Positions 16,518 through 30,125 of a DNA stretch of 64,000 bases are shown one piece after another. Location of the stretch: contig CP009416.1 in NCBI GenBank assembly GCA_000818095.1, forward strand, positions 2,650,501 to 2,714,500, in the 5' to 3' direction. The first letter of the stretch is position 1. Every line of letters begins with the position of its first letter. The notes beneath the pieces were generated by a model. It saw only the letters and a list, made by a program, of their open reading frames with translations. It was not told the DNA's origin and made no database searches. The position numbers and the translations under genes are program-made. Source of the DNA: Jeotgalibacillus malaysiensis (GTDB lineage: Bacteria > Bacillota > Bacilli > Bacillales > Jeotgalibacillaceae).

Positions 16518-19500
16518 TTATTTCAGTAATTTTGAGATTTCTTCAGAAGAGATTGCATTTTCTCCACCAATTACATAGTACCCTTTTGCTTTTCCTGCAT
16601 GATGATTAATAACATCTTTTGTTGATTGCTTCATTCTTGTTGGATGTGTCAGAATAAGCGGGTTTTTATTCATAGATGCATAAGATGAACCTGCAAGTGC
16701 ATCCGGATAATTTGAGCCTGTAGAAATAAACTGAGTTGACATATCAAGTTTAGATTCAAAGTGTTTAATAATATTAGCGTTTGTTTCGTATCGATCTGTA
16801 CCGCTTAAACGCTTTTTACCCGGTAACTTTGCAACTGATTTCTCAGTAATAGCATTTTCTCCACCGACAATATAACTGGATGTAAAGCCTTCATTCGAAA
16901 TAAATGATGCTACATTAGCTGGAATTTCCTTATCACGAGTTAATAGAATTGGCATTCCCAGTTGTCCTGCTACTGGTGCAATTGATAATGCATCAGCAAA
17001 ACTTTGGCCAGTCGCTAAAACAAATGATCCCTGCTTATCTAACTTTTTAGCTATATTAATAGATGTTTCGTATCTGTCTTTACCGCTAATACGTTCTACT
17101 TGAGAAATGGCAGGTAATTGCTTGATATCATTGACAACCTGGTTACTGATAACAGATTCTCCGCCTATTAATATAACTTTTGAAACATTTAAACGACTTA
17201 ATTCATTTAAGACGCTTTCACTTAATTGATCAGGTGCAGTCAATAAAAGTGGCGCGTCATACTTATAAGCAAGTGGTGTGGCACTTAACGCATCAGGGTA
17301 GTTCTTCCCAGTAGCGATTACCGCTACTTCAGAAGATACCCAACCGCTCTCAGATAAGGCAACTGACGTATCATAACGTGTATTTCCAGAAACACGAACT
17401 GCAAGAGATTCTTTCTTACCTGTATAAGATACTGCTGCAAAGCCATCAAGTCTGCCCCAACCTGAAACGAAATCATAACCAGATTCAAGCATTTCAGCAG
17501 GGTGAGAACCCCCATTTTCATCTATAGGATCTTCTACGTTATAAACAAGATCTTTAGTTTTCTTAGTTAATATACTTTTGACCTGCTCAGGAGTCAATTC
17601 TTCATTAGCTGATAACAAGTATGCTGCAATTGCAGCTACATGTGGAGTTGCCATTGACGTTCCATTAAAGTAAGTAACGTTCCCATCCGGCACTAAGCTA
17701 GGAATCTGTGTTCCTGGGGCTACGACATCAAGACCTACCCCGTAATTAGAGTAATCAGATACCTGATCATACGAATCCGTGGCTCCTACAGAAATCGTAT
17801 AGTGAGAAGAACCAGGATAAGACAATAGAGCCTCTCCATCATTTCCTGAAGCCGCGACTACAGTCACGCCTTTTTCTTTAGCATATATTAATGCGTCTTC
17901 TATCACTTTACTTGCTTCTGAACTTCCTAAACTCATATTAATAACATGAGCACCATTATCAACGGCATATTTAATTCCTCTTGCCACCTGTTCATTTGTA
18001 CCTCTTCCTTCATCGTTCAATACTTTTACCGGCATAATTTTGACAGATTGATTAATTCCAGCCATAGAATAGCCGTTATTGTTATCAGCGGCAATTACTC
18101 CGGCAACATGAGTGCCGTGACCATGATTATCGATAGCATTCGTATTTTCATCGATCATATTAAACCCTTTGGCAACCAGTACATTTTCACGCAGGTCAGC
18201 TAGCGTATGATCAACGCCGGTATCAAGTACAGCAACAATCTTATCAGGAAGCTGTTTTTGCTTTAGATGTTCAAGCAGGCCTTCATATTGAATATCTGCA
18301 TTAATTTTTCCTGATTCTTCTGCTTTGTTCTTTAAAGACCATTGGTCATCATAATACACGTCACTTGTAAGAGCATAGTACTCTTTTACAGGTTCTACAT
18401 ACTCCACTTCAGGTAGTGCTTCTATCTTCTTCGCCACATCCTGAGCTTTGAACTGACTCTGGTCAGCTAAATCAATAACAAAAGTATCCTCTGTAATTTT
18501 GTGGTCTTTTAAATCAGCGGTTACAGATTCCATATTGAATCCAGTTATTTTATCACTAAAGCTCTTCATAGATTGATCTTCTTTCAGTTTAATGATTAAT
18601 TTGCCACTGATGTCTTCTTTTTCATTTAAGAACCCTGTATCAGTAAGAAGTTCCACAACTGCAAGACCTTCCAGTTCTTCAAAATCAATCGATTGAGTTG
18701 TATTTCTAATGTTTGTGGCTACGTTTTCAGGAACAATTTCTAAAGACATATTATATAGTGTCTGAATCGCTGCCTGATCTCCAGCGCTTAATACATAGTT
18801 ACTTTCCTTTTGATCTTTTGAAATTGAGCTGATTAAAGGCTTTAACTCTTTCACTGCATCTAATATTTTTACACGGTTATCTTTATTTAACAGGACATTT
18901 GCACTGATATAAGGGGCTGCCTGATAATAAACTTTCGTTAGTTCTTTTCCGCTATCTGTTTGAGATAAAAGATTTGAGCGGATAGTTCTTAAATCTTTTA
19001 GAACTTCTTCTCCGTCAATTTCATGTGTCATTGTTACTTCAGCTGGACAATTATAACCACTCCCATCATCAGGAGGTAATACACTACCAGCAGCTGAAAG
19101 TTCATAGGAAATACCATTTTCGTAGTATGAAGAGTCATCATGCGTTTCAACCTTAATATAGTAGGTCCCAATCCAGGCAATAGGAAAATCTATGATTGCC
19201 GGCTCTTCCAAATATGCGTAACTGACATAGCGATCAAAAGTTTGATCCATTAACGCTTTATCCATATCAGAATATACTGAGATATTTACTTCTTCTGTAG
19301 AATTTAAATTAAAAGAAACATGTGAAAAATTATGTATATTTTCTTTTGATGGGGTAAAAGAGTACCAATGGACACTTTCTCCTTCACTAAATTCCGCCAA
19401 TAAAAGCTCATCCATCTGAATCGTTTTTGCATTTTCGATTTCTGAAGCCGCAATTGCTTTTTCAGGTGAAACAGTAGGTATCACAATGGTAAACACGAGC

Positions 19501-19535
19501 AATACCACTAAAAATAGTTGTAAAAACTTTCTCAT
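16518..19535 (-). CDS. Secreted subtilisin-like protease with three CWB2 wall-binding repeats
   Basis: 1005 residues. A signal peptide (1-29, hydrophobic core QLFLVVLLVFTIVIPTV) leads into an N-terminal beta domain ending ...WIGTYYIKVE (about 30-150), resembling bacterial pre-peptidase domains. Next come a module beginning NCPAEV at 162 with YYQAAPYIS at 203-211, and an inhibitor-like propeptide region (about 310-385). The S8 peptidase has Asp438 (VLDTGVDHT), His473 (GHGTHVAG), Asn564 (ASGNDG) and Ser627 (NGTSMATPH), so the triad is complete. Three CWB2 repeats, each with RYxTS/N and FxDALS/YPDALS cores, occupy about 720-1005 and should bind anionic wall polymer. A second protein with the same N-terminal part begins at 63332. 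Confidence 0.93.
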   Translation of the reverse strand: MRKFLQLFLVVLLVFTIVIPTVSPEKAIAASEIENAKTIQMDELLLAEFSEGESVHWYSFTPSKENIHNFSHVSFNLNSTEEVNISVYSDMDKALMDQTFDRYVSYAYLEEPAIIDFPIAWIGTYYIKVETHDDSSYYENGISYELSAAGSVLPPDDGSGYNCPAEVTMTHEIDGEEVLKDLRTIRSNLLSQTDSGKELTKVYYQAAPYISANVLLNKDNRVKILDAVKELKPLISSISKDQKESNYVLSAGDQAAIQTLYNMSLEIVPENVATNIRNTTQSIDFEELEGLAVVELLTDTGFLNEKEDISGKLIIKLKEDQSMKSFSDKITGFNMESVTADLKDHKITEDTFVIDLADQSQFKAQDVAKKIEALPEVEYVEPVKEYYALTSDVYYDDQWSLKNKAEESGKINADIQYEGLLEHLKQKQLPDKIVAVLDTGVDHTLADLRENVLVAKGFNMIDENTNAIDNHGHGTHVAGVIAADNNNGYSMAGINQSVKIMPVKVLNDEGRGTNEQVARGIKYAVDNGAHVINMSLGSSEASKVIEDALIYAKEKGVTVVAASGNDGEALLSYPGSSHYTISVGATDSYDQVSDYSNYGVGLDVVAPGTQIPSLVPDGNVTYFNGTSMATPHVAAIAAYLLSANEELTPEQVKSILTKKTKDLVYNVEDPIDENGGSHPAEMLESGYDFVSGWGRLDGFAAVSYTGKKESLAVRVSGNTRYDTSVALSESGWVSSEVAVIATGKNYPDALSATPLAYKYDAPLLLTAPDQLSESVLNELSRLNVSKVILIGGESVISNQVVNDIKQLPAISQVERISGKDRYETSINIAKKLDKQGSFVLATGQSFADALSIAPVAGQLGMPILLTRDKEIPANVASFISNEGFTSSYIVGGENAITEKSVAKLPGKKRLSGTDRYETNANIIKHFESKLDMSTQFISTGSNYPDALAGSSYASMNKNPLILTHPTRMKQSTKDVINHHAGKAKGYYVIGGENAISSEEISKLLK

Positions 19536-21763: not shown

Positions 21764-21793
21764 ATAAAAAAACTCATGATTTCTCATGAGTTT
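21764..21793 (-). terminator. Terminator of the tiny zinc-ribbon gene at 21798
   Basis: Minus strand AAACTCATGA, loop GAAA, TCATGAGTTT, then TTTT: a perfect 10-bp stem with tetraloop, starting 5 nt past the gene's stop. It independently supports the small gene. Confidence 0.85.
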
Positions 21794-21797
21794 CAAG

Positions 21798-21947
21798 TTA
21801 AACAATTTTTTGAAAAGCTCTTCTTTCAGCGTAATCCTTACAAACAGAACAGACATGAAGAGTTTGATTAATTCTATCTTTATATGTAGTCAAATTTTCT
21901 TCCTGCTTTTTGCAAAGAGTGCAACGCTTTTTAAACAGTCTCAACAT
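21798..21947 (-). CDS. Tiny CxxC zinc-ribbon protein, family Z1 (49 aa)
   Basis: A 49-residue protein beginning MLRLFKKRCTLCKKQEENLT and continuing TYKDRINQTLHVCSVCKDYA to ERRAFQKIV. Two CxxC pairs (Cys9/Cys12 and Cys33/Cys36) are spaced for one zinc ion. The AAGGGGG ribosome binding site is about 12 nt upstream and a perfect terminator begins 5 nt downstream. A paralogue of identical length lies at 29929-30078, sharing the RCTLCK/KCTLCK, INQTLxVC and CKxYAERRAxxK segments. The conserved pattern across two loci shows real coding selection. Function unknown; possibly a nucleic-acid-binding or metal-buffer protein. Confidence 0.85.
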   Translation of the reverse strand: MLRLFKKRCTLCKKQEENLTTYKDRINQTLHVCSVCKDYAERRAFQKIV

Positions 21948-22053
21948 TAGACACAAATCCCCCTTAATGTCATTGTGAATAATACTTTATTCATATTTAT
22001 TATAAGCCACTTCTTTTTTTAACACAATATGTTAAAAAATCATATTATTATCT

Positions 22054-24231: not shown

Positions 24232-25203
24232 CTATTTTATTAGTTGATCAATTGCTTGATCAGATACAGAAGATTTCCCTCCTGTGATCATATACATAGC
24301 TACTAAATCTGAATATTTATTAATCATGTCTACGGTTACAGATTTAGGTTTCTCAGGATGTGTAAGAATTACACCATTGAAAGATCCTGCTGCTAACGCC
24401 GATGCGGAAAGTGCATCAGGAAAATCTGTTCCCGTTGCGATAAATGGATAGTCCATATCAAGTATTCCCTGGTCAGCAAATTCAGAGACAATCTCACTAT
24501 TTGTTTCATAACGGTCTGCACCGGAAATTCTCTCATGATTTCCAATCGCTTTAGCTGCTGTATCAGTTATAACTTCTTTTCCACCGATAATATAAGGGAT
24601 TTGAAGGAAATCAGTCTCATTAATATATGATTCCACTACTGAAGGAACTTCATCCTTTTTGGTTAGCAGAATAGGAGCTTCAAGTCGAGCTGCAACAGGA
24701 GCAATTGAGAGAGCATCTGCAAATCCTTGTCCCGATGCTATAACGTAATCGTTATTATAATCCAGAGTTTCAGCAATTTTAACTGATGTTTCATAGCGAT
24801 CATTCCCTGAAATTCTAACAACCTCTATATTCATTTTAGATAAAGTTGACTCTACATTCCCAGAAATAGCTGCTTGTCCTCCAATTAAAAACACTTTTTC
24901 AACTTTTAATCTAAGCAACTCATCTTTAATAGAAGCTGGTAGTGCATTAGTTCTTGTTAAAAGTAATGGTGCATCGTATTGATAAGCTAATGGAGTAGCA
25001 CTTAATGCATCAGGGTATGAACTGCCGGTAGCCAATACTGCATGTTTAGATGTATCCCAACCTTCATAAGACATTAATGCTGATGTTTCATAGCGGTCTT
25101 CACCACCTACTCGATAAACTTTATCCGAGTCTGCTGCATGTACGCTGCTAAGCGTAGTAATTCCTGCAGCTAAAATTAATGAAATTGCAATCGTTCTTTT
25201 CAT
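24232..25203 (-). CDS. Free-standing CWB2 wall-binding protein
   Basis: 323 residues: a signal peptide (MKRTIAISLILAAGITTLSS, cut near HAAD) and then only three CWB2 repeats. Each repeat opens with R(V/I)xGxDRYETS/N, and ATGSSYPDALSATPLA, ASGQGFADALSIAPVA and ATGTDFPDALSASALA mark the three cores. CWB2 triplets bind anionic wall polymers in clostridial S-layer proteins. No effector domain is present, so the protein may be a surface coat or a blocker of anchoring sites. ATG at 25203 has GGAGG 5 nt upstream; the 14 residues before it in the open frame are discarded. It is closely similar to the repeats of the protease at 16518 and to 48756. Confidence 0.9.
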   Translation of the reverse strand: MKRTIAISLILAAGITTLSSVHAADSDKVYRVGGEDRYETSALMSYEGWDTSKHAVLATGSSYPDALSATPLAYQYDAPLLLTRTNALPASIKDELLRLKVEKVFLIGGQAAISGNVESTLSKMNIEVVRISGNDRYETSVKIAETLDYNNDYVIASGQGFADALSIAPVAARLEAPILLTKKDEVPSVVESYINETDFLQIPYIIGGKEVITDTAAKAIGNHERISGADRYETNSEIVSEFADQGILDMDYPFIATGTDFPDALSASALAAGSFNGVILTHPEKPKSVTVDMINKYSDLVAMYMITGGKSSVSDQAIDQLIK

Positions 25204-25401
25204 AAAATCCTCCAAAAGTATATATTTACAGATAAAATTATACATATGTATAGGATTAATAAAAACGGTTAAAAAGACTGATTATTTTTATTGATCATAT
25301 AAGATTTTAACATTGCCTAATTAATCAAAAGATAACGATTAAAGATTACTTTTGAAATTTTGTAAAATATATCTTTTATACTATATATCGTAATTAAAAA
25401 T

Positions 25402-29357: not shown

Positions 29358-29888
29358 ATGACTAATAATGATATTTTAATCCGTCTCCGATATGCACTGG
29401 ATATAAAAAACACTGAAATGATAGAAATCTTTGAACTAGGCGGGCTAACCCTGACAAAAGAAGAAGTCTTAAAAATTCTTACTAAAATCGATGATGATGA
29501 TTTTTATGAAGACTATGATGAACCACAGGAGACAGAAACATTTATCAAGTGCACGAATTCCATGCTTGAATCTTTTCTAAATGGATTTATTACGTTTAAA
29601 AGAGGGCCTCAAAAAGACAAAAATGGTCAAACGGTTAAACAGGACCGTTCTATTAAAAACCATGCAAGCGTTAATAATGTATTGTTAAAAAAAGTGAAGA
29701 TTGCATTATCATTGACTGGTGAAGAAATGATTGAGATATTTGAAAAAGCTGGTTTAACAGTATCTAAAGGTGAACTAGGAGCACTGTTAAGAAAAGAAGG
29801 ACATAAAAATTACAAACCGTGCGGAGATAAGTATGCAAGAAACTTTTTGAAGGGATTAACATTAAAATATAGAGACGACATTAAATAA
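29358..29888 (+). CDS. DUF1456 (YehS-like) protein
   Basis: 176 residues made of two similar halves. Each half begins (I/V)NN-type LxRLRYALDIKNTEMIEIFE / LKKVKIALSLTGEEMIEIFE and ends before FLNGFIT / FLKGLTL. This is the duplicated DUF1456 domain of E. coli YehS. Cytoplasmic, function unknown. AAGGAG precedes the ATG by 10 nt. It converges on the tiny Z1 gene, sharing a bidirectional terminator. Confidence 0.88.
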   Translation: MTNNDILIRLRYALDIKNTEMIEIFELGGLTLTKEEVLKILTKIDDDDFYEDYDEPQETETFIKCTNSMLESFLNGFITFKRGPQKDKNGQTVKQDRSIKNHASVNNVLLKKVKIALSLTGEEMIEIFEKAGLTVSKGELGALLRKEGHKNYKPCGDKYARNFLKGLTLKYRDDIK

Positions 29889-29930
29889 AAAACTGCAGCT
29901 GGGCACGTCTGCCTTTTGCTGCAGTTTTTT
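29887..29930. terminator. Bidirectional terminator between DUF1456 and tiny Z1 gene
   Basis: AACTGCAGC (29891-29899) / GCTGCAGTT (29918-29926) with flanking A- and T-runs on both sides. Confidence 0.75.
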
Positions 29931-30078
29931 AACTACTTTTTCTATATGCCCTTCGTTCTGCATATTCTTTACATTTAGGACATACTTTCAAAGTTTGATT
30001 GAGATGATCCCGATATGATGTTAATTGATTACTTCTAGTCTTGCATAACGTGCACTTTGCCTGGAATAATTTAAACAT
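29929..30078 (-). CDS. Tiny CxxC zinc-ribbon protein, family Z1 (49 aa), second copy
   Basis: 49 residues: MFKLFQAKCTLCKTRSNQLT, then SYRDHLNQTLKVCPKCKEYA and ERRAYRKSS. Same length and same four cysteines (9, 12, 33, 36) as the copy at 21798-21947, with about half the residues identical. AGAGGTG lies about 11 nt upstream. Substitutions are mostly conservative (RINQTL/HLNQTL, FQK/YRK), which indicates a functional family. Directly upstream is the broken Z2 gene, so Z1 and Z2 occur together here and apart elsewhere in the window. Confidence 0.85.
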   Translation of the reverse strand: MFKLFQAKCTLCKTRSNQLTSYRDHLNQTLKVCPKCKEYAERRAYRKSS

Positions 30079-30125
30079 TAGATTTACAACACCTCTTTTA
30101 ACTTCTGATATTCTTCACTTATTTA

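Follow-up and report, generated by a model that had tools for sequence, protein, structure and literature searches.

The window analysed here is a stretch of 64,000 nucleotides of Jeotgalibacillus malaysiensis (contig CP009416.1, positions 2,650,501 to 2,714,500, forward strand), and it carries two copies of a short gene whose product has four cysteines and a YAERRA signature. A preliminary description, made from the letters alone, had taken the pair for an unlisted zinc-ribbon family. In this study, we observed that the gene belongs to a genuine protein family, which is selected at the protein level and occurs far beyond its own genome. Translation confirmed both of the minus-strand frames of 49 codons that had been described:

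21798..21947, minus strand: copy 1, 49 codons plus stop, with an orthologue at the same position in genome G004
29929..30078, minus strand: copy 2, 49 codons plus stop

The two copies lie about 8.1 kb apart and are the sole yield of a six-frame search (E<=10) of their own genome (4.12 Mb, two contigs). Their products align without gaps, with 27 of 47 residues identical (57%) and 37 of 47 positive (BLASTP, E 4e-21 for this single comparison). Cysteines 9, 12, 33 and 36 stand at equal positions in a CxxC-20-CxxC-YAERRA layout, and the segments CTLCK, NQTLxVC and CKxYAERRA are common to both proteins, as had been claimed. At the codon level, the proportions of synonymous (pS) and non-synonymous (pN) change are 0.88 and 0.31 between the copies, and 0.75 and 0.14 between copy 1 and its syntenic orthologue in G004.

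Homologues beyond the own genome are present across the order, in the class and in one genome outside the class. The genome counts given here are lower bounds, with 17 candidates scored in most genomes. Within the genus, 5 of 12 genomes carry the family (single-sequence query), and two further weak places appear at a looser profile cut-off. Across the order, an 8-row profile (E<=1e-6) has matches in at least 139 of 397 sampled genomes, from 52 of 135 genera; in this order-level search G000 and G241 alone have two copies. With a 44-row profile (E<=1e-5), matches were found in at least 57 of 398 genomes of the class, including weak matches in a distant family, f50 (E 1.4e-9 to 9.6e-6). The phylum yielded at least 7 genomes of 398, and of these G802 (E 1.9e-17) lies beyond the class. 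Bhargavaea cecembensis and Rossellomorea vietnamensis are among the organisms with a match.

From other genomes 140 loci were fetched, and together with L009, L010 and L086 the gene was located in 143. Neighbourhoods are not conserved, and no neighbour gene recurs at a consistent place over the 143 loci. These loci and the two window genes, minus four f50 rows, form a core alignment of 141 rows from 63 sampled genera. Each of the four cysteines (C9, C12, C33, C36) is present in 141/141 core rows. The helix signature is conserved to 96-99% per position (Y39 in 136, A40 in 139, E41 in 138, R42 in 137 and R43 in 140 of 141), exact YAERR is found in 129/141 rows and exact YAERRA in 117/141, and further conserved positions are Y22 (134/141), A44 (126/141) and F5 (112/141). 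When the f50 rows are included, 142 of 145 rows fit the pattern, 123 of these 142 with a spacing of 20, and 126 of the 145 have exactly 20 residues between the CxxC pairs. Rows with this exact spacing were compared pairwise where pS was below 0.65 and at least 8 differences were present. The 461 pairs that passed, mostly near-saturated pairs across genera, have a median pN/pS of 0.63, with 3 pairs at 1 or above; for the 56 pairs within a genus, not independent of each other, the median is 0.13 and no pair reaches 1. The same-genus pairs show purifying selection, and the proposal that selection acts on the protein is thus borne out by the pattern of codon substitution.

Both copies are accompanied by candidate expression signals:

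21959..21965, minus strand: ribosome-binding site AAGGGGG of copy 1, read from the sequence and identical in G004
21999..22027, minus strand: promoter-like TTGTGT-N17-TATAAT of copy 1, read from the sequence and largely kept in G004
22015..22039, minus strand: palindrome TTTTTTAACA-TATTG-TGTTAAAAAA over the -35 region of copy 1, a possible operator
21769..21794, minus strand: terminator-like hairpin after copy 1, with an 11-pair stem, a GAAA tetraloop and then T's
30090..30095, minus strand: ribosome-binding site GAGGTG of copy 2, read from the sequence
29886..29931, minus strand: hairpin at the copy 2 stop, between convergent frames, identified by folding against shuffles

That both copies have a ribosome-binding site agrees with the preliminary description; each site sits 11 nt ahead of its ATG. 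The promoter-like element of copy 1 has a weak -35 and is not listed by a consensus scan. The promoter regions of copy 1 and of its G004 orthologue closely resemble each other, and both have TATAAT and the palindrome TTTTAACA-N5-TGTTAAAA over the -35. Among 12 genomes searched, this pattern occurs once in the own genome, once in G004 and once elsewhere in G010. For the other 139 core rows, no relaxed form of it was found within the 200 nt ahead of the gene; therefore, the palindrome is a local feature. The tetraloop terminator proposed for copy 1 stands in part: the GAAA hairpin is real (-13.1 kcal/mol, z -4.19, 0/200 shuffles as good), and its reading as a terminator is weakened by a weak counterpart in G004 (z -1.02, 35/200 shuffles as good) and by the consensus terminator scan, which lists neither this hairpin nor that of copy 2. 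The latter, missed previously, is the more stable (-24.4 kcal/mol, z -6.36, 0/200 shuffles as good) and may also serve the convergent frame 29358-29888. Elsewhere in the window, the minus-strand frames 16518-19535 and 24232-25245 share a GxxRYETS repeat, which we take to be cell-wall-binding-like; the former frame is presumably also subtilase-like.

The word unlisted holds within the scope of the libraries scanned. The window proteins stay below every Pfam and NCBIfam cut-off; their best Pfam row is PHD_4 (20.8 bits against a cut-off of 30.6), and for both the best NCBIfam row is TIGR02605 (13.6 and 18.5 bits against 31.3; E 0.052 and 0.0016). Scanned singly, a further 40 members likewise have no Pfam row with E<=0.01 that reaches its cut-off, so that Pfam scores cover 42 of 44 members (all except L065 and L068). 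At this threshold the commonest Pfam row is zf-C4_ClpX, found for 4 of 44 members (best E 2.2e-5, 17.5 to 24.7 bits), and the nearest approach among the further members is that of L056, with 24.7 of the required 27 bits. NCBIfam gave seven families at E<=0.01 for the 44 members (best E 0.0012), with ClpX in 2 of 44 and scores available for one member. A profile search of the PDB returned weak rows, led by PRDM9 (E 0.0076) and ClpX (E 0.053), and the motif YAERRA was not found in the literature searched. The YAERR family, with no model at cut-off in two general libraries as scanned, is a clean example of the microprotein blind spot.

The four invariant cysteines suggest that the protein binds zinc. 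In both AlphaFold models (mean predicted local distance difference test 84.7 for copy 1 and 80.6 for copy 2) strands are placed at 20-23 and 29-32 and a helix at 34-42, with C33 and C36 where the helix begins. Because a first knuckle is followed by a hairpin and by a helix starting at the second CxxC, the predicted fold is a treble clef. The earlier term zinc ribbon is probably wrong: in both models the helix comes directly after the second CxxC, the best profile match tested is the ClpX treble clef, and the FmdB-type ribbon remains below cut-off. In a profile-profile comparison with ClpX N-domains from 19 genomes, the ClpX N-terminal zinc domain was the nearest profile tested (hhalign probability 89.9%), and none of 100 shuffles that preserved the cysteine columns scored as high, so the similarity extends beyond the cysteines. 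In addition to the family, 31/31 genomes searched have a ClpX match of their own, in a long frame of ClpX size. Taken together, this is a well-conserved family outside the libraries scanned, with a known fold as far as the models predict it.

The net charge is positive in 141/141 core proteins (+6 to +14, median +9). Ahead of the first cysteine stands a short segment of aromatic and basic character; in 138 rows its median content of hydrophobic residues is 46%, with a net charge of +3. Of 143 loci scored, six exceed the hydrophobicity threshold and three were accepted. In L115, a core member, a membrane helix replaces the N-terminal segment, with a TTG start after AAAGGAGG, and the distant f50 relatives L182 and L185 carry a membrane helix at the N-terminus, together with a long linker. 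The other three candidates were rejected: L049 and L173 have no start codon ahead of the hydrophobic stretch, and L142 offers a lone TTG and lacks a clear ribosome site.

The reading with the most support, to which we give about an even chance, is that of a docking microprotein, possibly close to the membrane, that uses its YAERRA helix. Zinc would hold the fold of the microprotein, a conserved partner would be bound through the YAERRA helix, and the N-terminus may act as a membrane tether. That the short N-terminal stretch touches the membrane is a hint, drawn by analogy with the anchored variants, and the least certain part of the proposal. Several observations weigh against it. An accepted membrane helix is present in only 3 of 143 rows, from which membrane proximity is extended by analogy, and the single co-occurrence examined beyond the genus gave a negative result. 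The AlphaFold models rest on five sequences each, and residues 1-10 have the lowest confidence (means 65 and 72). Foldseek returned no row at E<=0.001 (0/198 and 0/224 PDB rows, 0/314 viral rows); ZZ domains and ribosomal chains head its PDB rows, and a ClpX entry stands at row 32 (E 2.4) of the 198-row search and is absent from the best 50 of the 224-row search. In sequence comparison the helix of ClpX lacks counterparts of the YAERRA residues. Finally, the basic charge suits RNA or DNA binding at least equally well.

The main rival is a ribosome- or nucleic-acid-binding role, which we consider possible but the less probable of the two. It would explain the positive charge of every core protein and the two nearly invariant arginines of the helix, and it is in line with the ribosomal chains among the highest-TM-score Foldseek rows (TMq about 0.5-0.61; ribosome entries by name, presumably eL24) and with uL24, eL24 and uS14 as weak rows of the PDB profile search (E about 0.1 to 2). 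However, none of the ribosomal matches is significant, the membrane-anchored variants are hard to fit, and the family is seen in about one third of the relatives, where almost all should have it if it were a core factor of the ribosome. Generally, zinc fingers are modules that contact proteins and lipids as well as nucleic acids, and the treble clef is among their commonest folds, according to an excerpt of PMC4999995.

A CsfB/Gin-like function with a sigma factor as partner seems rather improbable. The excerpted account describes CsfB of Bacillus subtilis as a free-standing zinc protein with a treble clef, active as a homodimer (PMC5890618), and the CxxC...CxxC layout is similar. Membership in Gin/CsfB was rejected, with neither a score above 27 bits nor a profile similarity beyond the cysteines: the hhalign probability was 15.6%, and with 7/100 shuffles as high the similarity is not above shuffled controls. 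Gin/CsfB is found as a separate gene in 30/31 genomes. As for the history of the family, a spread involving more than vertical descent with loss and rearrangement is quite improbable. Searches of mobile elements (tblastn, two queries) gave no match in 50,697 phage records and one truncated place, in Niallia taxi, in 72,556 plasmid records, a strict pattern matched once in 2.9 million viral contigs, and the tree, poorly resolved as it is, recovers many genera as groups, in keeping with vertical descent. That the two copies are chance frames or non-coding DNA repeats, as their shortness and AT-rich intergenic setting might suggest, is already refuted by a protein conserved over 52 genera whose close pairs change far more synonymously than in amino acids.

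Localisation, partner and mutational work on the family are made straightforward by the YAERR signature, by the small zinc fold and by the membrane helix that naturally takes the place of the N-terminus. Among known systems, the ClpX domain (PF06689, zf-C4_ClpX) is likewise a treble clef with two CxxC pairs. In contrast to ClpX, the family is a free-standing gene without the AAA+ ATPase, the window proteins are not listed for PF06689, and the YAERRA helix and the charge of about +9 are not shared by the ClpX domain. The FmdB-type CxxC_CxxC_SSSS ribbon (TIGR02605) has two CxxC pairs too, but the helix predicted after the second CxxC of the family is unlike a ribbon. McsA, the protein-arginine kinase activator, is a weak profile row (8wtb_B, E 6.7) that is not significant; it differs by having more than one zinc module, several in all, and a kinase as its partner. 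The CsfB/Gin anti-sigma factor (PF10764; PDB 5N7Y) is also a free-standing four-cysteine treble-clef microprotein, from the same bacterial group according to the excerpt (PMC5890618), but its CxxC pairs lie closer together and its core is GIHLYxxFICxxCE-like. The Haloferax C(P)XCG micro-proteins (HVO_2753, HVO_0758) are archaeal and have another motif, and of 8 members compared with the NCBIfam HVO_0758 model, one matched (E 0.016). As the excerpted source describes them, they are likewise zinc microproteins of less than 70 amino acids, and their deletion gives regulatory phenotypes (PMC10716476).
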